Source: a virus. Taken from it: DNA of 47,425 nucleotides. The DNA is taken from IMG/VR virus record IMGVR_UViG_3300007352_000007, positions 1-47,425 of that record, one strand, 5' to 3'. The position numbers and the translations under genes were made by a program. Position 1 is the stretch's first letter, and each line of letters opens with the position of its first letter. Below the pieces are notes generated by a model. It searched no databases. It worked only from the letters and a program-made list of their open reading frames with translations, and was not told the origin of the DNA. This document shows, in pieces, positions 4,291 through 47,425 of the stretch.

Positions 4291-4377
4291 ATGAAAACCT
4301 GTGCAACGTGCATCCATAAACCGGTATGCGGTAAACGTGGATGGTGTCCGAATTGGAAGGGGAGGTCTGAACGCTAG
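4291..4377 (+). CDS. Cysteine-rich micro-protein, 28 aa
   Basis: The ATG directly follows the previous TAA. The product contains CATC, PVC and GWCPNW, four cysteines able to bind one zinc. The last base of its TAG stop is the first base of the next gene's GTG start. Many Firmicutes phages carry such single zinc-knuckle peptides in early operons. Confidence 0.5.
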   Translation: MKTCATCIHKPVCGKRGWCPNWKGRSER

Positions 4378-5219
4378 TGTTAATCGAAAATACGCTCTTT
4401 GGTGAGAGGGACAAGGTTAAAATAGCGATAGACCGGCTTCAAGCATTTGAGCCACCAGAGGGGTATTACCTTGCCTTTAGTGGTGGCAAAGACAGTCAAT
4501 GTATATACCACCTTGCCAAAGAAGCAGGAGTTAAATTTGATGCACATTATAATCTTACCACTGTTGATCCGCCAGAGTTGATTTACTTTATGCGAGAAAA
4601 CTATCCTGATGTGATTATTGACCGTCCTCAAACTACTATATGGAGGCTTATAGAGAAAAGGGGATTGCCGACACGAATGGCACGGTTTTGTTGTTCCGAA
4701 CTAAAAGAGCATGGCGGACAGGGACGGATATGTGTTACTGGAGTTAGGTGGGCGGAAAGCGCAAGAAGAAAAAACAGCAGAAATACATTTGAAGTGGTTC
4801 GACACGGTAAAGGAAATTCAATATTATTCAACGATAATGACGATGGCAGGTTGGGATTCGAGAACTGTGTGCGAAAAGGAAAAAGAGTTGTTAATCCGAT
4901 TATTGATTGGTCGGACGAGGATGTATGGGATTACCTTAACAATGGGGGAATAAAGCATTGTTGCTTATATGATGAGGGGTTTACTCGTTTAGGCTGTATA
5001 GGTTGTCCTTTATCGGCAAATATGGCGAGGGAATTATTAAGGTATCCTAAATTTTCCGATGCTTACAAGAGAGCATTAGAACGACATATAAAACACAGGG
5101 AGAAAACAGGACGCAAGCAATCATTTAAAACAGTAGATGATTACTGGAACTGGTGGCTTAAATCTGCATATGACGATAAAGCCATAGATGGACAAGAATC
5201 TTTAGATACGGAGGTCTGA
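4377..5219 (+). CDS. PAPS reductase-family (PP-loop) protein, 280 aa
   Basis: GTG start preceded by GGGGAGGTCTGAACGCTA. The PP-loop SGGKDS is at residues 35-40. A cysteine pair (RFCCSELK) and a second motif (LGCIGCPLS) sit where iron-sulfur or zinc ligands occur in DndC-like and phage PAPS-reductase-like proteins. The family uses ATP to adenylate a substrate. Phage members are often annotated as phosphoadenosine phosphosulfate reductase but are more likely nucleotide or nucleic-acid modifying enzymes. There is no partner sulfotransferase or Dnd gene nearby, so the substrate is unknown. Confidence 0.75.
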   Translation: MLIENTLFGERDKVKIAIDRLQAFEPPEGYYLAFSGGKDSQCIYHLAKEAGVKFDAHYNLTTVDPPELIYFMRENYPDVIIDRPQTTIWRLIEKRGLPTRMARFCCSELKEHGGQGRICVTGVRWAESARRKNSRNTFEVVRHGKGNSILFNDNDDGRLGFENCVRKGKRVVNPIIDWSDEDVWDYLNNGGIKHCCLYDEGFTRLGCIGCPLSANMARELLRYPKFSDAYKRALERHIKHREKTGRKQSFKTVDDYWNWWLKSAYDDKAIDGQESLDTEV

Positions 5220-7856: not shown

Positions 7857-8063
7857 ATGGAGGTCAGGCGTACATACATTTCTAAAATAGCATTTTACCC
7901 GTGGAGGATCATGCCACACCCTGGCAGATGTAATGGAGATATCATTAAAAAGCAGCTCACACCAGAGGAAGTGGAAAAGTATTCTCATTACGGTCGTGGT
8001 GAGAGAGTAACGACAGTTGGGTTAATGGACTACCGAACATACATTCGTGACATAGCCCTGTGA
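7857..8063 (+). CDS. Hypothetical protein, 68 aa
   Basis: Preceded by AAAGGAGGGGTCGGTT. Mixed polar composition; QLTPEEVEKYSHYGRGERV suggests a small helical domain. No family recognised. The 78 bases that follow contain no gene. Confidence 0.55.
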   Translation: MEVRRTYISKIAFYPWRIMPHPGRCNGDIIKKQLTPEEVEKYSHYGRGERVTTVGLMDYRTYIRDIAL

Positions 8064-14875: not shown

Positions 14876-15349
14876 ATGCTGCCGACAAAAGAAAAGTTTG
14901 AAGAAATGATAGAGATACTTCAATGTATCATGCGGATTCAGGATTGGGATATAAGCCTACGATTAATCAATGACCATGAGATGCAGGGTATATACGGTAA
15001 AAAGTCAGAAGGTTGTAACGTCATGGATAAGCAGAATATGCACTCCGTCATATACCTCAATACAGACTTAATAGATACTAAGACATCAGACTTTGAATCC
15101 TTTGGGTGGTACAATGTCCTGATACATGAAATGATGCACATTATACACATAACGCTTGATGATTGGATAGAGGAACACTTATCCAAAGACCACTGGGCAA
15201 ATTATGAACTAGAGATGGAACGAAACCTTAATAGATTTGCAAGGGTTTTTATATCGGTTTATCCTGCTGAAAGTTTATTGGAAGGGTGTGAGGAAAACGA
15301 AGATTCTGATGTTGGACAAGATTCATCAGGATGCACAGAAAGTTATTGA
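14876..15349 (+). CDS. HExxH zincin-like protein, 157 aa
   Basis: Residues about 90-96 read LIHEMMHIIH, containing the zinc-protease motif HEMMH, in a small protein with an SprT/ImmA-like layout (alpha-beta N-terminus, HExxH helix, acidic C-terminus). The N-terminal part (DWDISLRLINDHEMQG) fits small phage zincins. A host-factor or virion protease role is possible but untested. The C-terminal acidic 20 residues are low complexity. Confidence 0.6.
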   Translation: MLPTKEKFEEMIEILQCIMRIQDWDISLRLINDHEMQGIYGKKSEGCNVMDKQNMHSVIYLNTDLIDTKTSDFESFGWYNVLIHEMMHIIHITLDDWIEEHLSKDHWANYELEMERNLNRFARVFISVYPAESLLEGCEENEDSDVGQDSSGCTESY

Positions 15350-16091
15350 GGATATTGCAGAGTTTGAGTATCTTCAATTCTACGGACTTAATGAAAATGT
15401 TTATTCCGCAGTCTATACACAATTGACACCGATTAAAACTAATCTACCAGTTTTTTGCCCCTGTACTTCAGTTGAACACATCAAAGCACCGAAGGTCATT
15501 CACCTTGACGATGAGTGGAAAGCAACAGAGGGCAAGAAGATAACCTCTACCGCAGAGCATACATGGTCGCTGATATTGCAGTTGGCGAAAAAAGCACGGT
15601 TACAGTTAAAAGACAAGATGATAGGCATTATAGGTTATGGCAGACTGGGTAAGATGATAGGCAAGTATGCGGATGCTTTCGGTATGACAATCTACGACAT
15701 AGACAGGAAACAAGAGAAAAGTTACGGTATGTTTTACCATGACTACTACGAATACATCTTAGGCAATTCAGACGTTATAACGATAAACATTCCCTTGAAG
15801 GGTAATGAAGGGATGTTTGGTAAGGCAGATTTTGAACTGATGAAACCTGGCGCATTGTTGGTGAACACTTCACGGCAGGGCGTTATAAAGGTTGACGAGT
15901 TGATACCATTCATTGAAAACGAGTACATCTACTATGCAGACGATTTCCTTAATGATGTGGAAATACCTGGTGCTATCCAGACACCCCATGTCGGGGGGAA
16001 CTCGAAGGACGCTAGAAGGTTGACTGATATTTATATTGCAGAACAAATGAGAAAGTATTTGGAGGGATTATGTCTAGCAAATATGAATTAG
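15288..16091 (+). CDS. D-2-hydroxyacid dehydrogenase-like protein, 267 aa
   Basis: GTG start at 15288 follows TTGGAAGG. The Rossmann motif GIIGYGRLGKMIGKYADAFG binds NAD(P). The catalytic set is present: Arg in NTSRQG, an acid in YADDFLND and His in QTPHVGG. The N-terminal substrate domain is short, so the protein is about 50 aa smaller than typical PGDH or formate dehydrogenase relatives. Likely reaction: 2-keto acid to 2-hydroxy acid. Its presence beside Neu genes hints at a sugar-acid or modified acyl precursor, which is inference. Confidence 0.82.
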   Translation: MRKTKILMLDKIHQDAQKVIEDIAEFEYLQFYGLNENVYSAVYTQLTPIKTNLPVFCPCTSVEHIKAPKVIHLDDEWKATEGKKITSTAEHTWSLILQLAKKARLQLKDKMIGIIGYGRLGKMIGKYADAFGMTIYDIDRKQEKSYGMFYHDYYEYILGNSDVITINIPLKGNEGMFGKADFELMKPGALLVNTSRQGVIKVDELIPFIENEYIYYADDFLNDVEIPGAIQTPHVGGNSKDARRLTDIYIAEQMRKYLEGLCLANMN

Positions 16092-16414
16092 CGGTATTAA
16101 CAAAGGAGTTTTTTGAATTAAGAGGAAGAGTAGAAAAATTAGAAAGGAAAGTATACGATCTAGAAAATCCAATAAGGTACACTGACCAGAACATCGGTAT
16201 AAGAGGCAATGAAATATATTTTAATGGGAACGTCTTGGCGTTGAAACCACACCCCGAAATGGTAAACGCAATAAGGTATAAAGAAAATGACAAGGTTGAA
16301 AATGCGGAAGTTTCAGGTAATGATATTATTGTTACGATGAAAAGCGGGGACGTATTTCGAGTTATAAATTATTATAATACAAAAAATATCAAAGTGGAGA
16401 GGGAAACCGTATGA
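16070..16414 (+). CDS. Hypothetical protein, 114 aa
   Basis: Overlaps the dehydrogenase by 22 bases. The N-terminal coiled coil (TKEFFELRGRVEKLERKVYDL) is followed by beta-rich sequence. It looks like a trimerising coiled coil with a small beta domain. Function unknown. Confidence 0.6.
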   Translation: MSSKYELAVLTKEFFELRGRVEKLERKVYDLENPIRYTDQNIGIRGNEIYFNGNVLALKPHPEMVNAIRYKENDKVENAEVSGNDIIVTMKSGDVFRVINYYNTKNIKVERETV

Positions 16415-17322
16415 GTTGTATTCTCTGCGGGTCCACTGATTATGAAGTCATATGGGATAAGATAGAACGAGAGAAGAAGGGGATATTAAGGAGTGTGGTT
16501 ATCCGTGATAACCTTGGTAACATTCTTAACGGCACTAATGTTATTTGCCGTGGTTGTGGTCTCATATATGTTGTTAATAGAATGGATAGACAGGAACTCA
16601 TAGACTTTTACGAGAACGATTACAGGAACATATACGGCAAGGCTACGAGTTTTAATGCAAGCATACATCTGCACGCAAGGCACGCTTTGGAATGTATGAA
16701 AGACGTTGGCGTGAAACGTGGTGCGAAAGTGCTTGATATCGGATGTGCGGTAGGGACATTTCTGGAGGGTTGCAAAGAGTATGACGCTTTTGGTATAGAA
16801 CCTAATAAGAAAACCTACGAGATAGCAAGAGAGAATAATTTAGATGTAGCCAATACGACAATAGAGGAATTTAATCCTGCATCCAAGTATGACCTGATAA
16901 GTCTGCAAAATACTCTTGAACATTTGTATGATCCCATAAGCGTGATACAAAAAGCAAGAAATATATTGACAGATGACGGACTTTTGTTGATATCCGTACC
17001 CAATGTATTAACTTGTGTGCATTGGTTGGCGGTAGATGCTTTCATGTCCTGCGCTCATTTGTTCGCTTTTTCACAATTAACACTTGTCCAACTAATGTTA
17101 AAGTGCGGATTCAGGGAACACGCAACCTATACTTACTTTGAGAGCATGGGTGAGAAGCTATATTGTTTCTTTAAAAAGTGTGAACCGCAGACACCACAGT
17201 TCATAAAGCCCGATGTTGAGAAATACAAGAGATTTTTAAGCGCGTGGGACGATACAGCAATGGCAAACTACGACATAAAATACCGATTTGATGGACTGAA
17301 ATCCCCATTAATAAATTTGTGA
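16411..17322 (+). CDS. SAM-dependent methyltransferase with N-terminal zinc-binding domain, 303 aa
   Basis: The N-terminus carries CILCGS and CRGCG cysteine pairs (zinc). Then comes a class I SAM motif, AKVLDIGCAVGTFLEG, with an acidic residue in FGIEPNKK, and the later motif LISLQNTLEHLYDP. This order is that of sugar C-methyltransferases of the NovU/TylC3 type and related Methyltransf_13-containing enzymes, which act on nucleotide or polymer sugars. In context it might decorate the nonulosonic acid or its acceptor glycan. Confidence 0.78.
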   Translation: MSCILCGSTDYEVIWDKIEREKKGILRSVVIRDNLGNILNGTNVICRGCGLIYVVNRMDRQELIDFYENDYRNIYGKATSFNASIHLHARHALECMKDVGVKRGAKVLDIGCAVGTFLEGCKEYDAFGIEPNKKTYEIARENNLDVANTTIEEFNPASKYDLISLQNTLEHLYDPISVIQKARNILTDDGLLLISVPNVLTCVHWLAVDAFMSCAHLFAFSQLTLVQLMLKCGFREHATYTYFESMGEKLYCFFKKCEPQTPQFIKPDVEKYKRFLSAWDDTAMANYDIKYRFDGLKSPLINL

Positions 17323-17329
17323 GGTGAAT

Positions 17330-18055
17330 ATGACAAAAATCATAGCCGATGCCTGTTGCAACCATCTAGGCAATAGGCAATTCATGGAAGAAATGATAAT
17401 CCAAGCTGGTAAAATAGGGATTGATTACATAAAATTCCAAGCATTTAAAGCTGATAATCTTAATAAAAACTGGCCTGACTTTGAAAAATCTTATGATTAC
17501 TACAAAAAAGTTGAATTACAGAATGATGATTACTCCTTTATCGTGGAAAAGTGCAAGGAAAGTGGGGTTAAACCTCTTTTTACGATATTTTCAAAGGAAT
17601 TGGCACTGGTTATTGGCGTGTTGGGGTGCGATACAGTTAAAATTGCCTCTCCTGACGCTGATAATGATAGGTTGGTGGATTTTTGCATCCAATATTTTAA
17701 CCATGTGATAATCAGTACAGGTATGACGGACGATAAAAACATATATAAGTTAAGCCAATACCCTAATGTATCACTTTTATACTGTATATCACGTTATCCT
17801 GCGCCCAAAAGCGAAGTTGACTTTGATAAGATGACGCTACTTGGCGGGTTTTCAGACCACACACCTGACATTGAGTGTGCGAAAAAGGCCATAAAACAAG
17901 GTGTGGAGTGGTTGGAAAGACATTACACGCTTGGGAAGTATCTTCCTGGCAAAGACCACTTATTCAGTAGCACACCAGACGAATTTAAGGAACTTGTTGA
18001 TTATCGAAATTATTTAGATAAATGTCAAATTTATAAGATGAGGTGGATGGGGTGA
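17330..18055 (+). CDS. neuB: N-acetylneuraminate/nonulosonate synthase (NeuB-like), SAF domain missing, 241 aa
   Basis: ATG at 17330 follows GTGAGGTGAAT. Motifs of the NeuB TIM barrel run in order: CNHLGN, IDYIKFQAFK, VKIASPDADN, VIISTGM, LLYCISRYPAP, GGFSDHTPDI, then LERHYTLG and PGKDHLFSSTPDEFK. It condenses an N-acetylated hexosamine (ManNAc type) with PEP. Cellular NeuB is about 340 aa with a C-terminal SAF (antifreeze-like) domain; this protein ends after the barrel and its barrel is compact. It overlaps the next gene by GTGA. Confidence 0.88.
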   Translation: MTKIIADACCNHLGNRQFMEEMIIQAGKIGIDYIKFQAFKADNLNKNWPDFEKSYDYYKKVELQNDDYSFIVEKCKESGVKPLFTIFSKELALVIGVLGCDTVKIASPDADNDRLVDFCIQYFNHVIISTGMTDDKNIYKLSQYPNVSLLYCISRYPAPKSEVDFDKMTLLGGFSDHTPDIECAKKAIKQGVEWLERHYTLGKYLPGKDHLFSSTPDEFKELVDYRNYLDKCQIYKMRWMG

Positions 18056-18408
18056 TTTGTCATAGGTGTAAGAAGGAATTTAAAGATATTAAAGAATTAA
18101 AGGAACATTTAGGGAAAGAACATGAATTGAGGTTGGAAGAATTTGACCCTGATTCCTATATTTATGTGGAAAGTGCTTATGTTAAAGACCGTGATATGTT
18201 GATATTGGGGTTTGATAAGGCTAATAAAATTGATGAGAAAGAATTTGAGATTGTTAATTTTATTGTTAAGGCAAAACTTCAAAAAGGTTCTAATAAAATC
18301 GTTCAACTCTTTATAGAAAACGCACATATACATTGTGATTTACACTCTTATGAGCAAATCATACAAAAAAAGATGGAGGTAGGTAATGTCAACAAAGAAA
18401 GATGTTGA
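18052..18408 (+). CDS. C2H2 zinc-finger small protein, 118 aa
   Basis: GTG start at 18052 (GTGA overlap) follows GAGGTGGATGG. Residues 1-27 form a C2H2 finger: CHRCKKEF followed by LKEHLGKEH. The remainder is beta-alpha without recognised motifs (MLILGFDKANKID). C2H2 fingers of this kind occur in some phage late proteins. Function unknown. Confidence 0.6.
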   Translation: MICHRCKKEFKDIKELKEHLGKEHELRLEEFDPDSYIYVESAYVKDRDMLILGFDKANKIDEKEFEIVNFIVKAKLQKGSNKIVQLFIENAHIHCDLHSYEQIIQKKMEVGNVNKERC

Positions 18409-19495
18409 AGCTGTTGTTAAGGAAGTACAGGAAGGTAAGGTTAAGATATCAGACCCCGCAATACCGCCACAGCAATTAAGGGAATCACCCTTGAACACAG
18501 AACAGATGAAACGTGCGGTGGGATTTGCACAAAAGCTACCGAAAGAATGGGAAGAAATACTACCCACGAAAAAGTATATTAAACTGCCACGCAAAACCGA
18601 TAAGGTGGCAATAGTGGGATTTGCTAACTCATGGAACAAAGCACCATATAATGACCCATCGTTTGAGATTTGGGGCATAAACGAACTTTACAAGTATCTG
18701 CAATCAATACCTAATGGTAGAGCCGATAGATGGTTCGAGATACACGATATACGGAACTCACCTAGTAAACAGAGGCCGGAACATCAGAAATGGTTAAAGA
18801 GTGCTAAGATACCCATTTATACATGGGATCACTATGACGATATGCCAGGAACTGTACCATACCCCAAAGACGATATTCTGAACAAACTGAAAGAAGTAGT
18901 ACCGTTTGGTTATAGGTATTTTACTAATCAGATTTCATGGATGATAGCTTTGGCATGGTATGAAGGATTCAAAGAGGTACATATCTATGGCGTTAACATG
19001 GCAACGGACTCGGAGTATAGTTTCCAAAGGCCATCCGTAGAATCGTGGGTGTTCTTCTTACAGTGCATGGGTATAAAGTATTACCAGCCTCCCGAATGTG
19101 ACCTATTATCGAATCCTGGAGGCTTACTGTACGGTTTTGAATCCGACAATAAGGCTTGCGTGCTTGTCAAACAGCGTATAACCGATCTAAAGCCAAAGGG
19201 TGGTGCATTACATACACAGAGGGCAACGGCAGAGTTTAAGCGTGATGAGATTTACAGACAACTGCGAAACACCGAAGGATATATCACTGGTGCGACAGAT
19301 GCTCTAAACTCACAATCGCGTGAAGAAGTGGAACGGTTGATAAAACATAAGCATATGGAATTGAATAAACTCGTGCCTACATTCACACAGTTGGATGAAA
19401 CTATTAAGAATTGCGACATACACACAGCACAAATGCAGGGTGCTTCGGGTGCTTATAGTGATGTACTGAATCATATTTTAAGAGGGCCACAGTGA
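18386..19495 (+). CDS. Putative GT42/DUF115-like glycosyltransferase, 369 aa
   Basis: Residues 70-90 (KVAIVGFANSWNKAPYND, then FEIWGINELY) form a nucleotide-binding strand-loop. FTNQISWMIALAWYEGFK and HIYGVNM follow. This order (VGxx, WGxN, NQISxxxAxAxxxGYKE, xxGxxM) resembles bacterial GT42 sialyltransferases such as Cst-II and the related phage/MptE-like fold. The GT42 catalytic histidine region is not clearly present, so activity is uncertain. A C-terminal coiled coil (about 280-350) may dock it to another protein. It lies between NeuB and NeuC/NeuA and is the natural candidate transferase. Confidence 0.55.
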   Translation: MSTKKDVEAVVKEVQEGKVKISDPAIPPQQLRESPLNTEQMKRAVGFAQKLPKEWEEILPTKKYIKLPRKTDKVAIVGFANSWNKAPYNDPSFEIWGINELYKYLQSIPNGRADRWFEIHDIRNSPSKQRPEHQKWLKSAKIPIYTWDHYDDMPGTVPYPKDDILNKLKEVVPFGYRYFTNQISWMIALAWYEGFKEVHIYGVNMATDSEYSFQRPSVESWVFFLQCMGIKYYQPPECDLLSNPGGLLYGFESDNKACVLVKQRITDLKPKGGALHTQRATAEFKRDEIYRQLRNTEGYITGATDALNSQSREEVERLIKHKHMELNKLVPTFTQLDETIKNCDIHTAQMQGASGAYSDVLNHILRGPQ

Positions 19496-20598
19496 AGATA
19501 CTTTTAGCGGTTACGAATCGTGCGCCGTGGGGCAGGATGAAAGCGGTTGCTCAAAAGATAAAAGAGTCACATACCTTGCAGATAATCGCTGCTGGTTCAA
19601 TGTTATTGGACAAGTATGGTGAGGCTGTTGAGGTAATGGAGAATGAGGGGTTTATCCCCAATGAGAAAATCCATTACAAGGTAGAGGGTGACACTCCCCA
19701 CATAATGGGGCTGTCAACGGGATTTTTCCTGATAGAGATATGTAATGCTTTGGAACGATTAAAGCCTGATATAGTGATTGCACACGCCGATAGGTATGAA
19801 CAGATGGCGGTGGCGACAGCAGCCTCTTACATGAATATTCCCCTTGTACATACGCAGGGCGGGGAGGAAACGGGAAGTATTGATGATAAGGTAAGAAACG
19901 CTATCACACAACTTGCCGACATACATTTCCCCGCAACAGAAAAGAGTGCCGACAGGATAAGGGCCATGGGTAAAGACAAGGTATATAATGTCGGATGCCC
20001 GTCCATAGATTTGATTGCAGGGGTAGACCTGACACACAAGCCCGAAGATATAAACGATTCCCATTTGTATGGTGGTGTGGGTGCTGAAATCGACTTGACA
20101 AAGCCGTATATTGTTGTGATGTTTCATCCCAACACAAGAGAATACGGAGAAGGTGAGTTCCAAGCCAATGAGATATTGACTGCGGTGAATAAGTTGGATA
20201 TCCAGACAGTATGGTTTTGGCCTAACATAGACGCGGGGAATGACGAGATTTCAGGTTATATCAGGAAGATGCGTGAACTGGGGTTGTGTGACAAGATAAG
20301 GTTCGTGAAGAATTTACCGCCGTTGAAGTTTTATAAGCTGATAAATAACTGTTCGTTGTTCATAGGTAATTCCAGTTCAGGTATAAGAGAAGGTTCATAT
20401 CTTGGAGTTCCTTATGTATGCATAGGCACACGACAGGATAAACGAGAACACGGTTTTAATACTGTAAGGGTGGGTTATTCATCAGGCGAGATATTTGATT
20501 ATGCGGAAAAGATGATAGGCAAGAAACACGCGAGAGATTATACGTTTGGAGATGGTACGGCAGGAGAGAAAATTATCAAGATATTGGAGGAATTATGA
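19492..20598 (+). CDS. neuC: UDP-N-acetylglucosamine 2-epimerase (NeuC/WecB-like), 368 aa
   Basis: GTG start in a GTGA overlap. The GT-B-type epimerase pattern is clear: LKPDIVIAHADRYEQMA, TQGGEETGSIDDKVRNAI, VMFHPNTREY, and NSSSGIREGSYLGVPYVCIGTRQDKREHG. The last segment binds the UDP part. Normal length. It makes ManNAc (hydrolysing form) or UDP-ManNAc from UDP-GlcNAc; with NeuB adjacent the hydrolysing form is the likelier one. Confidence 0.88.
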   Translation: MKILLAVTNRAPWGRMKAVAQKIKESHTLQIIAAGSMLLDKYGEAVEVMENEGFIPNEKIHYKVEGDTPHIMGLSTGFFLIEICNALERLKPDIVIAHADRYEQMAVATAASYMNIPLVHTQGGEETGSIDDKVRNAITQLADIHFPATEKSADRIRAMGKDKVYNVGCPSIDLIAGVDLTHKPEDINDSHLYGGVGAEIDLTKPYIVVMFHPNTREYGEGEFQANEILTAVNKLDIQTVWFWPNIDAGNDEISGYIRKMRELGLCDKIRFVKNLPPLKFYKLINNCSLFIGNSSSGIREGSYLGVPYVCIGTRQDKREHGFNTVRVGYSSGEIFDYAEKMIGKKHARDYTFGDGTAGEKIIKILEEL

Positions 20599-21230
20599 TA
20601 CTTGGTATTATACCAGCCCGTGGAGGTTCAAAGGGCATAAAGGACAAGAACATATATCCTTTATGTGGTAAGCCGATGATAGAGTACACAATACAAGCAG
20701 CAGAAAAAAGTATGCTTGATGACTGGTTCGTTTTCACTGATAAGTACACTGAATATAAAACATACGGTATCATACGCCCTTCCAAAATGAGTAAGGGTAA
20801 GAAGGAAGATATATTCACATGGTTGCCGTATGCGATAGAGCAATATGAACTCATGTTTGACAAGTGTGTGGATGCGATAATGTTATTACAGCCCACAAGC
20901 CCGTTACGGACAGTGAACGACATTGACGGGGCTATTGAATGTTTTAATGATAACCAGTTGATAGAGTCCGATAGTTTGTATTCGGGATATTTACTGAGAT
21001 TGAAAACTAAGGACAAAAGATTCAACAAAGCAACAGACAAAGCACACTTTCAGAGGAATGGTGCGATATTCATAACACGCAGGGATTTACTCAACAAAGG
21101 TAAGCTATGGAGCGATAACGTAATCGAATATGTGATGCCATCATACAGGAGTGTTGATGTTGATGACATGGATGACGTTTTCATAGCGGGAAGTATATTG
21201 AAAAACGGAGGGCTACATGGTTATAGTTAG
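20595..21230 (+). CDS. neuA: CMP-nonulosonate (CMP-sialic acid) synthetase, NeuA-like, 211 aa
   Basis: ATGA overlap after TTGGAGGAAT. The cytidylyltransferase P-loop IIPARGGSKGIKDKN is at residues 5-19, LLQPTSPLRTVNDID follows, and the FQRNGAIFITRRDLL segment is as in KdsB/NeuA enzymes. Slightly shorter than N. meningitidis NeuA (about 228). It activates a nonulosonic acid with CTP. With neuB and neuC it completes a de novo CMP-sialate-type pathway. Confidence 0.9.
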   Translation: MILGIIPARGGSKGIKDKNIYPLCGKPMIEYTIQAAEKSMLDDWFVFTDKYTEYKTYGIIRPSKMSKGKKEDIFTWLPYAIEQYELMFDKCVDAIMLLQPTSPLRTVNDIDGAIECFNDNQLIESDSLYSGYLLRLKTKDKRFNKATDKAHFQRNGAIFITRRDLLNKGKLWSDNVIEYVMPSYRSVDVDDMDDVFIAGSILKNGGLHGYS

Positions 21231-38036: not shown

Positions 38037-38234
38037 ATGCCAACATCATCATTTAACAAAGAATTTATAATAAAGAATCCTGAAACGCTTATAAGGGCGA
38101 TTGAGAAATCAATGGCATATCCATGTACAGGCTGTACGGAACGGTGGCACGCCGAGAGTCATTGTAACTGTTATGAATTTTGCGATAAGTACAGGGCGTG
38201 GAAAGAGGTGAATAAAGATGAAAATAGTGATTGA
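38037..38234 (+). CDS. Cys-rich small protein, 65 aa
   Basis: AGTGGAGGGACACT site. Contains CTGCTERW, HCNCYEFC with six cysteines and two histidines, a zinc-binding look. It overlaps the endolysin by 17 bases. No family recognised. Confidence 0.55.
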   Translation: MPTSSFNKEFIIKNPETLIRAIEKSMAYPCTGCTERWHAESHCNCYEFCDKYRAWKEVNKDENSD

Positions 38235-39462
38235 TCCCGGACATGGAGGAACTGAACCCGGCGCAATAGCGAATGGGTATAAGGAAAAAGATATAAACCT
38301 TCCACTATCTTTAAAGGTAAAAGACTTATTAAAGGATTACTGCGAAGTCATAATGACAAGGACAAGCGATATAGATATGTCATTGTCTGCTAGAGCGAAA
38401 GTAGCAAAAGACAATAACGCAGACTTGTTACTATCCTTACATCATAATGCTTATGATGGTAAGGCGAATGGGTGTGAGGCTATATATAGTATCAAGGCAA
38501 CGGAGGATTGTAAGCACCTTGCAGATGCGCTTGTAAAAGGCATGGTATCAGAAATAGGCGTTATATATCGCAGGATATTCAGCAAGGAAAGTACGACTAT
38601 TGCAGGGCAGGATTGGTATGGAATACCGCGTTATAGCTTGCCCGTACAGTCAATCATCTTAGAATCATTTTTCATGGATCACAAGGGTGATTTTGGCAAA
38701 ATGAATTTAAACAAGCAGGCATATGCAATCGCTAATGTTATAAAAAATCATTATAAATTGGGAGTGAATGCTATGAACCCTATAATGGGTAAATCACAGG
38801 CTACCGCAGAACAGATGAACACTTTCATTAAGCGAGTCAATCCCAATGCACCTGATAATCTTGGACAAATGTACATTGAAGAAGGAGAAACCGAAGGTGT
38901 ACGGGGTGATATTGCCTTTGCACAGGCGTTAAAGGAAACCAACTATTGGCGGTTTACAGGTGATGCAAAAATAGAATGGAACAATCCCGCCGGTTTAGGT
39001 GTTGATAGTTCAGAAAAAATCATCGGATATACGCCAGATGGACAACCGATAAAAGAGCATAATGGTAATAAGTTTCCCGATTGGCGTACGGGTATAAGGG
39101 CGCAGATACAGCACTTAAAGGGGTATGCTACAAAAGAACCACTTAATCAACCTTGTGTAGATCAAAGATGGGGCGAACTTATTAAGAAAAAACTTATTGG
39201 TGCTGCACCCAACTGGGAACAGCTTAACGGTAAATGGGCTTATCCTGGAACTACATACGGTCAAGATATTATCAAGATATGGAAGCAGATACTTGAAGTG
39301 CCTATAATTGAGATTGACTATAAGGCAATAGCTGAACAGCTACAAAAGGATAATAAACTTAAAGACGAGCAGATAAGCCTTATGGCAAAAGACCTTACGG
39401 CTGTATCAGATAAATACAATAGTTTAAAGGCAGGGATTAAAGTATTAGTAGAAAAATATTGA
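38218..39462 (+). CDS. Endolysin: N-acetylmuramoyl-L-alanine amidase plus glucosaminidase, 414 aa
   Basis: Residues 1-178 are Amidase_3 with zinc ligands: DPGHGG (His), YKEKDIN (Glu), LHHNA (His) and catalytic Glu in IILESFF. Residues about 185-370 (SQATAEQMNTFIKRV, GVRGDIAFAQALKETNYWRF) are a glucosaminidase (LytD-like) domain whose catalytic Glu is in AQALKET. A short C-terminal coiled coil follows. Two murein hydrolase activities in one protein give lysis together with the downstream holin. Confidence 0.9.
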   Translation: MKIVIDPGHGGTEPGAIANGYKEKDINLPLSLKVKDLLKDYCEVIMTRTSDIDMSLSARAKVAKDNNADLLLSLHHNAYDGKANGCEAIYSIKATEDCKHLADALVKGMVSEIGVIYRRIFSKESTTIAGQDWYGIPRYSLPVQSIILESFFMDHKGDFGKMNLNKQAYAIANVIKNHYKLGVNAMNPIMGKSQATAEQMNTFIKRVNPNAPDNLGQMYIEEGETEGVRGDIAFAQALKETNYWRFTGDAKIEWNNPAGLGVDSSEKIIGYTPDGQPIKEHNGNKFPDWRTGIRAQIQHLKGYATKEPLNQPCVDQRWGELIKKKLIGAAPNWEQLNGKWAYPGTTYGQDIIKIWKQILEVPIIEIDYKAIAEQLQKDNKLKDEQISLMAKDLTAVSDKYNSLKAGIKVLVEKY

Positions 39463-39474
39463 AAGGAGATTGTC

Positions 39475-39672
39475 ATGGAACAGAACAGATTAAGGTCATG
39501 GGTAGTATGGACATCTATTGTTGCGCAGATAATATCACTCGGTCAGATAACTGGCTTATGGGCTAGTCTTGGCGTTGATGCTGGTATGATAGGTGATGTT
39601 GCAGCAGGAGTACTACAAATGCTTGTGATATTCGGTATACTTAACAACCCGACAAAACCAGACGGATTCTAA
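39475..39672 (+). CDS. Phage holin, phi LC3 type, 65 aa
   Basis: Start after AAAGGAGATTGTC. Two hydrophobic spans with the family signatures RSWVVWTSIVAQIISLGQ and GVLQMLVIFGILNNPT (then KPDGF). Holins of this family form membrane lesions that release the endolysin. A strong bidirectional terminator follows. Confidence 0.9.
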   Translation: MEQNRLRSWVVWTSIVAQIISLGQITGLWASLGVDAGMIGDVAAGVLQMLVIFGILNNPTKPDGF

Positions 39673-39677
39673 AAGTA

Positions 39678-39702
39678 AAGCCCCCTTAATCGGGGGCTTT
39701 TT
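39678..39702 (+). terminator. Terminator between lysis genes and leftward dockerin gene
   Basis: AAGCCCCC pairs with GGGGGCTT (39678-39685 with 39692-39699), loop TTAATC, followed by T-run on the plus strand and preceded by A-rich sequence, so it can also stop leftward transcription. Confidence 0.85.
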
Positions 39703-39704
39703 TA

Positions 39705-39962
39705 CTATTCGATCTCTTCTACGCCGATAATATGTCGTTTGATTTTCAGTAAGTCAAGTACATTTATGCTTCCGTCCTGATTAACGTCTGCGTTGTCTAG
39801 GTTGATCGTTACATCTTTGCCGAGTATATAGTCCTTTAGACACTGTATGTCTGCCTCGTCTATCAATCCATCATTGGTGACATCACCGAACATTGGGGCA
39901 GAAGCACACGCAGAAACCATGAGAGTGAATAACAATGCCAATACAATAACCTTTTTTACCAT
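39705..39962 (-). CDS. Dockerin type I lipoprotein, 85 aa
   Basis: Residues 1-19 are a lipoprotein signal with lipobox VSAC (Cys 19). Residues about 26-80 form a dockerin I domain: two calcium loops (DVTNDGLIDEAD and DVNQDGSINVLD), each followed by a helix (LKDYILG, LLKIKRHIIG). Dockerins bind cohesins of cellulosomal scaffoldins or cell-surface anchors. A lipid-anchored dockerin in a phage would sit on the host membrane facing out. It has its own consensus promoter and is transcribed against the lysis genes, so it looks like a lysogenic conversion gene. Confidence 0.9.
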   Translation of the reverse strand: MVKKVIVLALLFTLMVSACASAPMFGDVTNDGLIDEADIQCLKDYILGKDVTINLDNADVNQDGSINVLDLLKIKRHIIGVEEIE

Positions 39963-39985
39963 AATAATACTCTCCCTTCATTTAT

Positions 39986-40013
39986 ATTATACCTTATTTT
40001 CCCTATATGTCAA
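39986..40013 (-). promoter_or_regulatory. Consensus promoter of the dockerin lipoprotein gene
   Basis: Read leftward, TTGACA (40008-40013 on plus) and TATAAT (39986-39991) are exact consensus hexamers spaced 16 bp. AAGGGAGAG follows before the ATG at 39962. Such a strong promoter outside the lytic circuit suggests expression in the lysogen. Confidence 0.85.
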
Positions 40014-40017
40014 TTTT

Positions 40018-40048
40018 CAATAAAAGTCAAGGGGCTAACTGCGCCCCT
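40018..40048 (-). terminator. Terminator of the leftward small-gene operon
   Basis: Read leftward, AGGGGC (plus 40043-40048) pairs with GCCCCT (plus 40030-40035), followed by TGACTTTTATTG. The hairpin contains the stop of the gene at 40035 and abuts the dockerin promoter. Confidence 0.55.
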
Positions 40049-40229
40049 CATATAATATCCACGGCCCGAACCACACAGACAAATAATATCGTGTACGCCC
40101 GAACATCTTTATCATCTGTTTTCTGTACTCTTTTTTCTTGGTGTGCCTTGCTTGCTCTTTCTTCTTAATTTGTGGATTCATTGCCTTTATGGCTGTTTTA
40201 ACTAAAAGTGTTTTTGCTATGTGTAGCAT
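40035..40229 (-). CDS. Small basic protein, 64 aa
   Basis: Start after AAGGGGATAAAACCT. Very lysine/arginine-rich (NPQIKKKEQARHTKKKEYRK) with a hydrophobic C-terminal part (YYLSVWFGPWILYEG). Could bind nucleic acid or the membrane. Last gene of the leftward FtsK-containing operon. Unknown. Confidence 0.55.
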   Translation of the reverse strand: MLHIAKTLLVKTAIKAMNPQIKKKEQARHTKKKEYRKQMIKMFGRTRYYLSVWFGPWILYEGRS

Positions 40230-40271: not shown

Positions 40272-40502
40272 CTACTTTAATAAGCGTACAAGCTGGCTCA
40301 CATTATCAAGGGAAACATTTGCAATGCCATACATCAGCAACATTCCCACCCCAGCTAACGCATATGGAAGTATACCACCACTACTTTGTAATTTGCCGTT
40401 GTTAGAATATATGTAAGTCCGTGAAAATGATATGTTTACTGATAAGTATTTATTGCCTGAATTGCTGACTATAAGATTGTTGGGTTTGACAAGTTCATTC
40501 AT
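40272..40502 (-). CDS. Small membrane-associated protein, 76 aa
   Basis: After AGGAGGGTATATAT. A beta-rich N-terminus is followed by one hydrophobic span (ILPYALAGVGMLLMYGIANV). In the operon with the Replic_Relax-like and FtsK-like genes. No family recognised. Confidence 0.55.
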   Translation of the reverse strand: MNELVKPNNLIVSNSGNKYLSVNISFSRTYIYSNNGKLQSSGGILPYALAGVGMLLMYGIANVSLDNVSQLVRLLK

Positions 40503-40514
40503 ATATATACCCTC

Positions 40515-41057
40515 CTACTTTAATATATTCTCTATCCCCTTCATATCCAGTCCTATCACCTTAAACACTAACCCTGTATGCGGTATGGTAACTTCCCTAT
40601 CTGTTATTATCAGCACTCTCGGCTTGCACCCAAATATCGGTATAAAGTCCATGGTGTACTTGTCAAAATCGAACTTGTTATTAAGATGTATCTCCACTAT
40701 CACAGGGAATACTATTTCATGATCTCTGATGTAGCATAGGGCATCCGGTCTGATATGCTCGAAGGTGTATTCGTTATGCCATTCCAAAACGTCAAATTTG
40801 GCACTTAAATGCGTATATATTTCTGTTCTAATCAGATCGTGATGAATTTGTACCGGCTTTTTTCCTATGTAATACGCATGACAATTATTGATCGTGCTGA
40901 CCGTCTTTTTTATCAAGCCATCCCTTACCAACTTAGCAAGCCGTGTCATACAGTAACGGTACGAATGAGGGTAAAATAATCTTTGTAACTGACCTGATGT
41001 TACAATGTGAAAATCCTCTATGAAGTTTAATATACTCTGATCCTTCTCGGTAATCAT
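40515..41057 (-). CDS. Replication-relaxation (Replic_Relax) family protein, 180 aa
   Basis: ATG at 41057 chosen because it makes an ATGA overlap with the FtsK-like gene (an in-frame ATG at 41081 is also possible). Residues about 1-70 are a winged helix (LNFIEDFHIVTSGQLQRLFY, then TRLAKLVRDGLIKKT). The rest is an alpha-beta fold with VIVEIHLNNKFDFDKYTMDF, the pattern of the PF13814 family. Those proteins accompany FtsK-like coupling ATPases on conjugative plasmids and ICEs and are proposed to act in plasmid replication or mobilisation. Confidence 0.7.
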   Translation of the reverse strand: MITEKDQSILNFIEDFHIVTSGQLQRLFYPHSYRYCMTRLAKLVRDGLIKKTVSTINNCHAYYIGKKPVQIHHDLIRTEIYTHLSAKFDVLEWHNEYTFEHIRPDALCYIRDHEIVFPVIVEIHLNNKFDFDKYTMDFIPIFGCKPRVLIITDREVTIPHTGLVFKVIGLDMKGIENILK

Positions 41058-42283
41058 TTTTCCACATACGGGTTGATACATTTTGCCCTTAACTCCTTCA
41101 TCTTTTCTATTCTCTCCTGCTTGATTTCTTCCGCAGTCCTAAAGGCATCCTGTTTCTTCAACAACTTCCGTATCTTTGACGATTCAATGTAGTTTAACTG
41201 GAACTCTTTCAACTCACCGCAGTACTTGACAAGGAACCGTCCAGGATTCTTAATTTCCTCCGCACCTGGCATATCGAGTATGACTTCGCTATCAACTTGA
41301 CTGACTGTTTTCCCTGCTATTCTGACCGGCATATTGGCTTTGATACTTCCTGCTATGATCTTCACATCCGGCCTTTGCATGGCACATATGAAATGTATAC
41401 CTACCTTCCTTGACATACTTATCATGGTGCGAAACTTCTCCATCAAGTACTCATAATTTGATTCAGCCAGTCGGGAAAATTCGTCAATGATAACTACCTT
41501 ATACGGCATAGGGGTGAACCTTTTATTCCATGCCTCCAAGCTATCAATATAAACCTTGTTCTTTACGCTGCGGAATAATTTAAGACGGCGTTCATTTTCT
41601 GCTGATAAGTCTTGCATGAGCATTTCAAAGTCTTTCGGGGTTTCGCCATAAGACTTGACCTTTCGGCAATCCTCATACTTGCCGAGGCCGACCGCCTGAA
41701 AGTCTATTAAGTGTAAGTCCACGTTATACTCACCAAGTAACAGGGATAACACTATGGTATCAAGCAAGGAGGACTTCCCTGATCCCGTTTCCCCTGCGAT
41801 TATCACATGGGGACAATCAGTAATGTCAAGAAAGAATTTCCCTTCCCGTGACTGACCTATCAGGATGTTCAGTTGTTTAGATTCACTTAATAACTCAAAC
41901 GAATAATCATATTTCAAGTTATTGTCCAAAAGTTTAATAACCAATTCCTTATTAAAGGAAAACTCGATTTTCTTATTTATGGCTTGCTCGATTTCCTGCT
42001 GATGCCTTTCAAAGTCTTTCTGACATATCCCATTAGGCATATGTACTATAAGGTTATTGCCCTGCTTGCGTATAACAAGAGGTATCTGTTTCGCCTTATT
42101 CTCCAATCCACACATTCTAAACACCTTCTCATACTTGCTCTCATGGTTAATAACCTCTAAGGCTAATCCTCTACCAACAATCCACCACGGGGAGAGGGGT
42201 AAAGCCATCCCCACCGAGGTAAGCACCGAACCACAGGCGAGTGCTGCCCCAGCCAACCCCAAACCCAAACCAACCCACTTCAT
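41054..42283 (-). CDS. FtsK/TcpA-like DNA-translocating ATPase, 409 aa
   Basis: ATG at 42283 follows GGGGGTGTGGTG. N-terminal hydrophobic segments (LGLGLAGAALACGSVLTSVG) anchor it in the membrane. Walker A is GETGSGKSS at 164-172 and Walker B is KVVIIDEFSRL. The C-terminal RecA-like fold has ICAMQRPDVKI. The layout is that of TcpA/Orf21-type coupling proteins of Gram-positive plasmids and ICEs rather than cell-division FtsK. It could move the circular prophage DNA or couple it to a transfer channel; no other conjugation genes are here. Confidence 0.8.
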   Translation of the reverse strand: MKWVGLGLGLAGAALACGSVLTSVGMALPLSPWWIVGRGLALEVINHESKYEKVFRMCGLENKAKQIPLVIRKQGNNLIVHMPNGICQKDFERHQQEIEQAINKKIEFSFNKELVIKLLDNNLKYDYSFELLSESKQLNILIGQSREGKFFLDITDCPHVIIAGETGSGKSSLLDTIVLSLLLGEYNVDLHLIDFQAVGLGKYEDCRKVKSYGETPKDFEMLMQDLSAENERRLKLFRSVKNKVYIDSLEAWNKRFTPMPYKVVIIDEFSRLAESNYEYLMEKFRTMISMSRKVGIHFICAMQRPDVKIIAGSIKANMPVRIAGKTVSQVDSEVILDMPGAEEIKNPGRFLVKYCGELKEFQLNYIESSKIRKLLKKQDAFRTAEEIKQERIEKMKELRAKCINPYVEK

Positions 42284-42366
42284 CACCACACCCCCATTAA
42301 CTTGCTTTTTATAAAACCTTATAAAATAACATATTTAAAGCCGTATAGCCAATCAGTAATATGACT

Positions 42367-42389
42367 ATACTTTGAACCATACTTTGAAC
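42367..42389 (-). repeat. Two 11-bp direct repeats beside parR
   Basis: ATACTTTGAAC occurs at 42367-42377 and 42379-42389, 12 bp apart, at the 3' end of the ParR-like gene in the 105-base gap before the FtsK-like gene. It may be part of a regulatory or centromere-like array, but two copies are few. Confidence 0.4.
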
Positions 42390-42544
42390 TAGAAATTGAA
42401 TATATCCTTCTTTTCTTTCTTCTTCTCCATGTCGGCCTTGATTAATTCCTTTATATATGCACTCGCGCAGAACTTTGTTTTGACATGATCATATAACTCT
42501 TTGTCTTTTTTTCGTCTAAACGATACAGGTATTCTTAACTCCAC
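42389..42544 (-). CDS. parR: ParR-like ribbon-helix-helix protein, 51 aa
   Basis: Too short for usual ORF calling. GTG start at 42544 lies 10 bases inside the ParM-like gene. ELRIPVSFRRKKDKELYDHV is a beta strand plus helix of an RHH fold, followed by ASAYIKELIKADM and a lysine-rich C-terminus ending DIFNF. Small RHH proteins directly downstream of ParM-type actins are the centromere-binding partner. Its tail probably contacts the actin, as in ParR. Assignment by order and fold. Confidence 0.65.
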   Translation of the reverse strand: MELRIPVSFRRKKDKELYDHVKTKFCASAYIKELIKADMEKKKEKKDIFNF

Positions 42545-43386
42545 AGCGATCGCCCCACCTTCTCAAATCCGTAAGCATTGGCAAATATTGAATCAGGTAT
42601 CAACACAGCTTGCGGAATCTTGGCTTTAATAGCCTGAAATAATAGCTGACCGCCACCACCAATGACTAGGACATTGTGTGTCCGTATGGGATATTCCACC
42701 CGTAGCTGACTGACGAGGGTATCAATGTACGACTTGAATATGCCCTTGTCTACATCTTGTTTCTCCCCGTCAATCGTCAAGCCGTGTTGCAATATCCTTC
42801 CTGCATCCTCTGGACGTAAATCAAGCCCCGTGCTGTTGAGCGACTTGATAAAGTCATGGTAAAGGTTTAGCGTTCCCATCGGCAAGGAGAATGAATTACC
42901 CACCTTGATTCTATCCCCCATTTCCACCTCCGCAATATCCGTTGTGCGACCGCCAATGTCAATGACAATGCCGGAGAAGTCAGAGCCGATTACCGCCGCA
43001 AATCCTTCGGGATATACCGCCACATCATCAATGATGACCTTGCGAGGGACATTGTTGATTGATACATGGTTTACTTTGGTGCTTATTAGAGTTGAACGGA
43101 GAGCGTCTTTGTCAAGTTTATACTGTGACAGGGGTAAACCCACCACCACTTTCACAGGTTCATCGGTACTTTTGGCTACCGCATACAAAAACAAGGTACG
43201 CAATCCCCTTTTGCTGACCTTCCTGTACTCCGTGTCATATGTACCCTCACCGATGTACCATAGTCCTTCATCTGTTGCAATCATTTCAGACCTCAACAGT
43301 CCTGCTATCCGCGAACATTTTGACTCAAATATGTACCCTTTTGATGTTTTTGTCATACAGTTTCCGATGTCTATGCCTAGAATCAT
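42535..43386 (-). CDS. parM: ParM/Alp-type plasmid segregation actin, 283 aa
   Basis: ATG at 43386 has GAGGTG upstream. Phosphate 1 motif GIDIGNCMTKT, phosphate 2 motif GIVIDIGGRTTDI and adenosine motif LVIGGGGQLL are present in actin/ParM order. Family: ATP-driven filaments that push plasmid copies apart, and AlpC of corynephage CGP3 that moves phage DNA. Length is shorter than R1 ParM (320) but similar to clostridial Alps. It is followed by the ParR-like gene and preceded by ATATTCGG sites. Confidence 0.85.
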   Translation of the reverse strand: MILGIDIGNCMTKTSKGYIFESKCSRIAGLLRSEMIATDEGLWYIGEGTYDTEYRKVSKRGLRTLFLYAVAKSTDEPVKVVVGLPLSQYKLDKDALRSTLISTKVNHVSINNVPRKVIIDDVAVYPEGFAAVIGSDFSGIVIDIGGRTTDIAEVEMGDRIKVGNSFSLPMGTLNLYHDFIKSLNSTGLDLRPEDAGRILQHGLTIDGEKQDVDKGIFKSYIDTLVSQLRVEYPIRTHNVLVIGGGGQLLFQAIKAKIPQAVLIPDSIFANAYGFEKVGRSLWS

Positions 43387-43484
43387 ATTCAATTTCACCT
43401 CTATATAATCGTTTATAATCTAATATATTCGGATAAAGCCTAAATGTTTACACTTTTATCGAATATACTGAAATTTTAAAGGAA

Positions 43485-44177: not shown

Positions 44178-45194
44178 TCATATTTGGGATATGGCTTTTT
44201 TAAGACCTTCAATATCAGTATGGGTATAGGTGTCTGCCGTGAACGAATATTTCGTATGTCCGAGGATCCTCTGGATAGAAAATGTATCGGCTCCGGCCTT
44301 TGCCATTAAGGAAGCAAATGTATGACGGCAACAATGAGGATTGAGTTTCCGTATACCAAGTCTTTCAAGTCCCGGGTAGTAGTATTTCGCTCTATATGCT
44401 TTATCGGTAATGGCTTGTCCCTTGTCGTTGCAGATAAGATAATTACCGCCGTAATTGTACCACTTCCGCACATATTCGATTATTTTCGGGTGGATAGGTA
44501 TTATACGTCCCTTCCCGGCCTCTGTCTTATTGCCTCCAATAATGTACTGTTCATCAAGGTGGACATCGAATCGGGTGATCCCCAGGAATTCATTTATCCT
44601 CATGCCAAGATGTATCAGCATCAGGATCGTATCGGTCCAGCATTTGTCATTGTCAAACATCTTCTTGATTTCAGGGTCGGTAAAGGCCTGCTTTTCTTCT
44701 TTTATGGATTTCGGCAGCCTCACGAAAGAGGCGTAATTCTTATTTATGATATCATTCTGCATGGCGTATTCGCATAACATATAAGCCACCACTTTTATTT
44801 TTTCAAGCGATGACCGGCTCATATTTTTATTGCTGTCGATTATGGATTGGTAGTGATTGGTCCGCAGTATCTGATATAGGGTCCCGGCATATTTTGAAAG
44901 ATGTTTCCACCCTGCCCGATAACAATCTGCGGTTTGTCTCGAGATGTATTCGTATTTAGAATCGGACCATTCCTTGTAAAGTTCTCCGAGCGTTATATTT
45001 TCTTTGGGGATCGGATTTGATTTGTATTCAACTAATTTTTGCAGGGCTATTTCGCTTGACTTATAATAGCCTATGGTCTTATAAAGCTGACGCCCATTCT
45101 GTGAGCAGCCTATCGGGCATCTGGCGATCCATGGGTTGCGACGTGTTCCCTTCAGCTTGTAAACAGTTCCAAATCCATTTGGTAGCCGAATAAT
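44178..45194 (-). CDS. int: Tyrosine integrase, probable ATT start, 338 aa
   Basis: The frame is open from just after the repressor stop. The N-terminal AP2-like arm-binding domain (RLPNGFGTVYKLKGTRRNPW) and SAM-like core-binding domain (ENITLGELYKEWSD) are complete. The catalytic domain has Arg (LGMRINEF), Lys (KTEAGKGR), HxxR (HCCRHTFA), His (LGHTKYS) and Tyr (TADTYTHTD). No ATG, GTG or TTG precedes RLPNG. The best start is ATT at 45194, 6 bases after GGGGAG. The first downstream ATG (44822) would delete both DNA-binding domains. It would integrate at the tRNA-Ala attP nearby. Confidence 0.88.
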   Translation of the reverse strand: MIRLPNGFGTVYKLKGTRRNPWIARCPIGCSQNGRQLYKTIGYYKSSEIALQKLVEYKSNPIPKENITLGELYKEWSDSKYEYISRQTADCYRAGWKHLSKYAGTLYQILRTNHYQSIIDSNKNMSRSSLEKIKVVAYMLCEYAMQNDIINKNYASFVRLPKSIKEEKQAFTDPEIKKMFDNDKCWTDTILMLIHLGMRINEFLGITRFDVHLDEQYIIGGNKTEAGKGRIIPIHPKIIEYVRKWYNYGGNYLICNDKGQAITDKAYRAKYYYPGLERLGIRKLNPHCCRHTFASLMAKAGADTFSIQRILGHTKYSFTADTYTHTDIEGLKKAISQI

Positions 45195-45584: not shown

Positions 45585-45661
45585 ATTATAACAAAATAAG
45601 TATAGCTTGTCTATAAAAAACTATTGACAATATAGGTAGCATATACTAAAATATAGACAAG
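45585..45661. promoter_or_regulatory. Divergent lysogeny-switch promoters and operators
   Basis: Rightward: TTGACA at 45624-45629, TAAAAT at 45647-45652, 17-bp spacer. Leftward: TAGACA (plus 45608-45613), TATAAT (plus 45585-45590), 17-bp spacer. The exact inverted pair CTTGTCTATA (45606-45615) and TATAGACAAG (45652-45661) overlaps the leftward -35 and the rightward -10. They are the probable repressor operators, allowing looping or coordinate repression. Confidence 0.78.
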
Positions 45662-46945: not shown

Positions 46946-47425
46946 AGGCTTACAAAGGGTACAAGAAAGGCTTAACGTGTCAAGGGTTTCAATATGCAGA
47001 AGGAGAGACATACGAGCAGGCAGAGAAACCATCCTGCTGTGATCATGGTTTCCACTTCTGCGACAATCCGCTTGACGTACTTGATTACTACGATTTATGC
47101 GACAGCGATTTTACCGAAGTTGAGGTTTTAGGCGATGTAGACAGACAAGTGGATGGTGACAGCAAGGGTGCAACTAACAAAATTAAGATTGGCGCAAAAA
47201 TGGACTTGAAAGGGTTTATTAAGACGAGTTTTGATTTTTTGTGGGAGAGTTGCAAAAAGAAAGACAAGTCTGACGCGTCACAGCTTGCATCCTCTGGCGA
47301 CAGGTCACAGCTTGCATCCTCTGGCGACAGGTCAAAGCTTGCATCCTCTGGCGACAGGTCACAGCTTGCATCCTCTGGCTATGGGTCAAAGCTTGCATCC
47401 TCTGGCGACAGGTCACAGCTTGCAT
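46942..47425 (+). CDS. DUF7666-like protein with 9-residue repeats (5' part, continues at base 1)
   Basis: Start after GGGAGGGTGTT. Residues 1-60 resemble the DUF7666 family (MKAYKGYKKGLTCQGFQYAE, then GFHFCDNPLDVLDYY). From about residue 113 a repeat of nine residues (SQLASSGDR or SKLASSGDR) runs to the window end and continues from base 3. Family members are common in Clostridia phages; function unknown. The number of repeats is not fixed by this sequence. Confidence 0.8.
   Translation, partial: MKAYKGYKKGLTCQGFQYAEGETYEQAEKPSCCDHGFHFCDNPLDVLDYYDLCDSDFTEVEVLGDVDRQVDGDSKGATNKIKIGAKMDLKGFIKTSFDFLWESCKKKDKSDASQLASSGDRSQLASSGDRSKLASSGDRSQLASSGYGSKLASSGDRSQLA
47278..47425 (+). repeat. 27-bp in-frame tandem repeat at the window edge
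   Basis: Five full 27-bp units plus a partial one, each starting TCACAGCTTGCATCC or TCAAAGCTTGCATCC. The 36-base overlap with bases 1-36 (also ending in this repeat) shows circular joining inside the array. It is coding in one frame and has no unique spacers. Confidence 0.92.

Follow-up and report, generated by a model that had tools for sequence, protein, structure and literature searches.

A phage-encoded, dockerin-only lipoprotein as a possible membrane-tethered partner of host cohesins in cellulosome-making Clostridia

The binding of dockerins to cohesins is, in the words of a section of PMC5748583, very tight and the assembly rule of cellulosomes; in the part of PMC11557425 that deals with simple cellulosomes, their attachment to the cell is called incompletely understood and their scaffoldins are without obvious anchors. 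On the phage side, excerpts from PMC3952083 describe Ltp of phage TP-J34, a lipoprotein made by the prophage, whose ectodomain of repeats lies on the outside of the membrane. The gene considered here lies in the IMG/VR virus record IMGVR_UViG_3300007352_000007, which is linear, 47,425 bases long and used here in full (the whole of it is called the window), and encodes an 85-residue protein that combines a lipoprotein-type signal with a dockerin. That it is phage-encoded, as the first-pass annotation had it, is borne out by the terminase, capsid, endolysin and integrase of the same record. The accompanying statement that no such phage system is known holds in part: no dockerin-only lipoprotein of a phage was found in the searched literature, outside which subscription papers mostly lie, and the dockerins treated in the accessible portion of PMC9377139 belong to bacterial genomes; phage proteins with dockerins do exist in BFVD and IMG/VR, however, and include a second one made of lipobox and dockerin only.

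Type I dockerins of cellulosomes, such as that of CelS (Doc48S; 1daq, 2mte), Doc918 (in 3ul4) and those of C. cellulolyticum (2vn5, 2vn6), share with the phage protein the family, two calcium loops with F-helices and the predicted fold, by which its type I dockerin is confirmed; unlike them, it is phage-borne, comes with a lipobox and without a catalytic module, and has E-A and V-L at positions 10/11 of its two repeats. In cellulosomal enzyme subunits the dockerin comes attached to a module for catalysis or binding; the 85 residues here hold the dockerin alone. Pfam PF00404 (Dockerin_1) matches residues 26–78 with 53.2 bits (E 3.4e-14, cut-off 22.9), and by sequence the best solved chains are CelS/Doc48S (E 1.5e-12) and then Doc918. 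Calcium loop 1 reads D27-x-T29-x-D31-(6)-D38 and loop 2 D59-x-N61-x-D63-(6)-D70; the D or N expected at loop positions 1, 3, 5 and 12 is present throughout both repeats save for T29, position 3 of repeat 1. Set beforehand as a check on the dockerin assignment, these residues uphold it with that one substitution. Threonine likewise occupies loop position 3 in the dockerins of loci L121, L021 and L002, and five aspartates are invariant across an alignment of 38 dockerins. An AlphaFold2 model made with 35 sequences has a mean predicted local distance difference test score of 87.7, and about 96 across the dockerin; with the dockerin model, Foldseek returned from the PDB dockerins or cohesin-dockerin complexes at ranks 1–34 of 36, the model superposing on Doc48S (2mte) with 1.1 Å (Foldseek E 3.2e-5) and on Doc918 with OlpA (3ul4_B) with 0.8 Å, and the C. 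cellulolyticum dockerin (2vn5, 2vn6) being among the further matches.

The earlier description as a lipoprotein that is nearly all dockerin also stands. The signal peptide leads into the lipobox V-S-A-C with Cys19, which is followed by the six spacer residues ASAPMF and the dockerin (G26–G80); the features of bacterial lipoproteins, that is, n-region, hydrophobic stretch and lipobox cysteine, are present. Two lipobox expressions, PROSITE PS51257 and G+LPP, each in the form that we take it to have, both match at Cys19, where the hydrophobic stretch ends, and we infer that the protein is a lipoprotein, with lipidation predicted at this residue.

Positions 10/11 of dockerins, through which cohesins are recognized, are given in passages of PMC5748583 as A-L/I in mesophilic clostridia and as S-T in C. 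thermocellum. The phage dockerin has E36-A37 there in repeat 1 and V68-L69 in repeat 2; taken over positions 10, 11, 17, 18 and 22, repeat 1 (E-A, K-D, G) is unlike the mesophile A-L pattern and repeat 2 (V-L, K-R, G) is near it. If the protein binds a cohesin, repeat 2 would presumably do the binding. V-L is present in repeat 2 of L114, a member of the order of Ruminiclostridium hungatei, and repeat 1 of Doc918 is likewise acidic at positions 10/11 (D-E). A paper titled for a single binding mode, listed among the references of PMC12484212, reportedly covers the Doc918 complex.

Promoter, gene and terminators form a closed unit with the layout of a moron, apart from the neighbouring operons (Table 1). 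The frame is intact and opens with an ATG, which has the Shine-Dalgarno-like GAAGGGAG upstream and lies 23 nt from the promoter end. The promoter, TTGACA-16-TATAAT, had been called perfect and is; with spacers of 15–19 it is the sole 12/12 site of the window, and in 30 windows simulated with a first-order Markov model such sites averaged 0.13 per window over all these spacers. The hairpin towards the lysis genes has −17.5 and −17.9 kcal/mol on the two strands (z −3.8 and −3.5), and that of the upstream genes sits just before the promoter (z <= −3). As first described, the gene is transcribed against the lysis genes in that it converges with endolysin and holin, but it is not antisense to them, because the bidirectional hairpin separates the two; an antisense or read-through origin from convergent lysis transcription was ruled out by this terminator together with the gene's own promoter. 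Two perfect inverted copies of the word CTTGTCTATA at 45606–45661 flank the divergent repressor promoters, the only place where perfect copies do so, and are probable operators. No perfect copy lies near the dockerin promoter, the nearest with up to two mismatches (39855–39864) being within the gene; the case against repressor control of this promoter is nevertheless weak, since near-matches to the word exceed chance across the window (81 vs 54.9). The unit's own promoter and terminators and its absence from the related viral records (0 of 3, which may be incomplete) suggest moron status, with expression predicted for the prophage.

Tentatively, and just short of calling it probable, we see in this protein a lysogenic-conversion (moron) lipoprotein from a plasmid-like temperate phage that infects cellulosome-making Clostridia, the membrane-tethered dockerin of the protein engaging a host cohesin. 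The consensus promoter, outside the visible repressor operators, would make a monocistronic mRNA in the prophage state; the product would be exported by Sec and lipidated at Cys19, and the dockerin, calcium-bound and with a fold predicted at high confidence, would be held some six residues off the outside of the cytoplasmic membrane. There it might dock, probably via repeat 2 (V68-L69, K75-R76), onto a host cohesin, either of a scaffoldin on its way out or of a membrane-anchored OrfX; in the phage itself no cognate cohesin is found at E <= 10. By occupying or re-tethering the cellulosome at the lysogen membrane it could, speculatively, alter surface architecture, from which the prophage may benefit through adhesion or reduced superinfection. 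The specific version of this, in which the anchored dockerin captures a host scaffoldin or the cohesin of OrfX, so that the cellulosome becomes anchored anew at the lysogen membrane, is possible but somewhat unlikely.

Where such a host might be sought was approached through genome searches, which are samples: 391 Clostridia genomes with at most 13 candidates scored per genome, so that small dockerins could be missed. The 85-residue protein has matches in 70 of the 391 at E <= 1e-4. All of the 12 best-matching genomes (E 1.2e-13 to 2.8e-11) are from the R. hungatei order, in which 15 of 19 sampled genomes match, and the best outsider follows at 1.2e-10. This points to a cellulosomal ancestry of the phage dockerin, with its closest kin among the dockerins of that order. 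Among the matches listed, all genomic dockerins sit in larger open frames (at least 269 residues); at 48 genome loci, dockerin open reading frames below 260 residues occur in three (L029, L037 and, with its left end open, L044); none of these has a lipobox, and no protein consisting of signal peptide and dockerin only was found. To one genome of the order, G250, points the FtsK of the phage, with E 1.4e-107 as against 9e-48 in the next of the 391 genomes. The gene order of the window recurs there (a 64/89-residue protein, a small membrane protein, Replic_Relax at 50% and FtsK at 46–50% identity), flanked by an integrase on one side and by holin-/amidase-like genes, named by eye, on the other; this module belongs to a prophage, for IMG/VR holds the same 21 kb at 100% identity as a record classed as virus (L176). 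With the dockerin of the window, tblastn found nothing in the examined G250 contig pieces, prophage region included, and in L176 two matches alone, of 11 and 14 residues with E near 1.

Near its dockerins G250 encodes a 1332-residue scaffoldin with six cohesin matches, then a GH48-dockerin protein and further dockerin proteins, and after these an OrfX-like protein of 226 residues with an N-terminal hydrophobic anchor, a stretch of about 60 residues rich in Ser/Thr/Lys and a single cohesin (131.5 bits). The same layout is given for the cip cluster with its “mysterious” OrfX in a passage of PMC5748583, and a G250 cohesin matches cohesin structures of C. cellulolyticum (1g1k, E 4.9e-72; 2vn5/2vn6, 5.9e-72). 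In the G250 regions around known dockerins, which are part of the genome, the shortest of 33 dockerin frames has 228 residues; G+LPP matches none of the 33 and the laxer PS51257 five. A cohesin-encoding host lineage, on which the first idea depended, has thus a candidate in that of G250, with a related module in a prophage, at least six scaffoldin cohesins and the OrfX-like cohesin. Both the dockerin and the adjoining module indicate mesophilic cellulosome makers, while the virion genes give no clear direction: relatives of the terminase are found at five viral loci (46–65%) and, at E <= 1e-30, in 31 of the 391 genomes (best 47%), 12 of which have dockerins and 9 cohesins, none with a dockerin on the terminase contig. 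Single-sequence scans of viral contigs with portal, Replic_Relax, FtsK and endolysin detected no phage relative, and the phage collection holds no DNA similar to window 23500–47425.

Several observations weigh against a cohesin-binding lipoprotein in a host of this kind. In the examined G250 regions 34 dockerin domains were found, 32 of which could be parsed and two not; A-L or A-I stands at positions 10/11 in 24 of the 32 at repeat 1 and in 24 of the 32 at repeat 2, E-A or V-L in none, and threonine at loop position 3 of repeat 1 in none either. Terminase relatives at E <= 1e-30 are absent from all 58 searched genomes of the R. hungatei order, and 22 of the 31 genomes that have them are without detectable cohesin; the host could be another lineage, since these relatives lie in other Clostridia. 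The window has a GC content of 41.1%, against 37.1% in the examined G250 regions, and that of the dockerin gene (40.7%) equals the phage's and not that of G250; this speaks against a very fresh transfer from that species. Finally, a six-residue stalk would keep the domain inside the Gram-positive wall and not on the surface; because it places the dockerin below the wall, the fitting partners would be scaffoldins in transit and the OrfX cohesin, not mature cellulosomes outside.

The short stalk suits an inhibitor of DNA injection better than surface display, and the main rival to cohesin binding is superinfection exclusion of the Ltp type, in which the lipoprotein would block DNA injection by binding a protein on the injection path of the infecting phage; the dockerin fold would then be a scaffold only, with no cohesin involved. 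By analogy the layout would be the same, prophage-encoded and lipid-anchored with a repeat ectodomain near the membrane (PMC3952083, in excerpt). We regard this as unlikely: the domain is clearly a dockerin and thus of another family than that of Ltp, its calcium loops and helix 3 face are still dockerin-like, the serine-rich spacer of Ltp is absent (ASAPMF stands in its place), there is no PHROG match, and no phage target was found. The place of the gene beside the lysis genes is a further difference from Ltp. A dockerin tail taken from a host enzyme and linked to a lipoprotein signal, as yet without function of its own, would fit the lack of the gene in three of three related viral records and on every terminase contig of the 31 genomes, as well as the departure of repeat 1 at the recognition positions; it is made improbable by the intact frame, the consensus promoter, the Shine-Dalgarno-like site and the terminators on both sides, by the agreement in GC content with the phage (40.7% and 41.1%), and by the independent union of lipobox and dockerin in another phage contig (L134). 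Very improbable is a secreted decoy, cut by signal peptidase I after A-C-A (residues 18–20, which also suit an A-x-A site), that as free dockerin would reach exported scaffoldins, fill their cohesins and keep enzymes off them, as both expressions place the lipobox cysteine at residue 19, where the hydrophobic stretch ends, and the phage gains nothing clear.

Phages do carry dockerins elsewhere; what is unusual is a lipoprotein that is dockerin only. Dockerins or partial matches were found at nine viral loci and two more, all but one in larger proteins (370–1556 residues). Those of Myoviridae ctCL221 and ctagO6 and of a “lysozyme” of Podoviridae ctUm43 in BFVD, and of L002, L133, L135 and L137–L139 in IMG/VR, are phage-encoded like that of the window but, unlike the stand-alone lipoprotein, parts of larger proteins; in the six IMG/VR proteins (370–1137 residues) the dockerin is internal or C-terminal, and one has a lamin-tail domain. 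L003 and L004, short matches within a 584-residue protein, were set aside. Closest in design is the 109-residue protein encoded at 7950–8276 of L134 (IMGVR_UViG_3300022719_000175), whose lipobox reads I-S-G-C and whose dockerin scores 44.6 bits; it resembles the protein of the window in being a lipobox signal and a dockerin with little else, on a phage contig, and differs in lying in a plus-strand gene run and in having longer flanks in its mature part, which counts 82 residues. The contig (58.8 kb), which also encodes a tail protein, thyX and ribonucleotide reductase, is unrelated to the phage of the window and has no match in the phage collection; the gene is directly followed by one for a small membrane-type protein. 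On another mobile element, the plasmid pRUMAL01 of Ruminococcus albus 7, RUMAL_RS22630 is, like the protein of the window, a small dockerin protein beside ParM; unlike it, it has 119 residues, a lipobox was not found, and the plasmid is of 421 kb with seven further dockerins. Its frame, at L096:2839-3198, adjoins a ParM/StbA gene, and the plasmid has eight dockerin matches in all.

To judge by its genes, the record is that of a temperate phage that also has functions of a plasmid-like kind. One direction is taken by terminase, capsid, SU10-type adaptor, endolysin and holin, the opposite one by Replic_Relax, FtsK, ParM, integrase and a helix-turn-helix protein of repressor type, with the dockerin gene between the lysis genes and the plasmid-like module. 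The latter (40515–43398) combines Replic_Relax, FtsK and ParM, that is, plasmid-like maintenance beside an integrase, and a distant pair is present in Thermoanaerobacterium plasmids. Within the structural region, on the plus strand, lies a nonulosonic (sialic-type) acid cassette (15237–21230) of 2-hydroxyacid dehydrogenase, methyltransferase, NeuB (141.9 bits), UDP-GlcNAc 2-epimerase (208.8 bits) and cytidylyltransferase, which possibly serves glycosylation of the virion or of the host surface. Elsewhere, a 12-bp repeat (817–892) encodes WDSVGDSVG-like units in a 213-residue protein without Pfam match, a PAPS reductase-type protein lies amid early genes (4377–5219), and a 27-bp tandem repeat of 5.5 copies (47277–47425) continues past the record end.

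Table 1. The dockerin unit and its neighbours in the window
Feature	Coordinates	Strand	Remarks
Endolysin (Amidase_3 + glucosaminidase)	38218..39462	+	convergent neighbour
Holin	39475..39672	+	phrog_297; convergent neighbour
Hairpin terminator between lysis genes and dockerin gene	39677..39700	.	usable in both directions
Dockerin lipoprotein gene, 85 aa	39705..39962	-	signal peptide 1–18, predicted lipid Cys19, spacer 20–25, dockerin 26–80
Perfect sigma70/sigmaA-type promoter TTGACA-16-TATAAT	39986..40013	-	sole 12/12 site in window
Hairpin terminator of upstream minus-strand genes	40028..40050	-	isolates dockerin unit
64-aa protein	40035..40229	-	37% identity to G250 prophage module protein
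76-aa small membrane-type protein	40272..40502	-	its place is taken in G250 by a 62-aa one (likeness judged by eye)
Replic_Relax protein	40515..41081	-	50% identity to G250 prophage protein
FtsK/SpoIIIE-like protein	41054..42289	-	46–50% identity to G250 prophage protein
ParM-like partition protein	42535..43398	-	–
Phage integrase	44178..44822	-	–

What is new here is a putative phage lipoprotein moron built from a known binding module. Carried by a phage, predicted to be tethered to the membrane and equipped with a promoter of its own, such a dockerin offers a one-gene test of viral cellulosome manipulation and a natural means of pinning scaffoldins to the membrane. If the protein does capture a host scaffoldin or OrfX and so re-anchor the cellulosome, this would be a first instance of a virus governing how cellulosomes are put together, and L134 would be evidence that the design arose in phages more than once; the lipid-anchored dockerin would then supply an anchor to the scaffoldins of simple cellulosomes, which have no known one, and may be a clue to how these are held.
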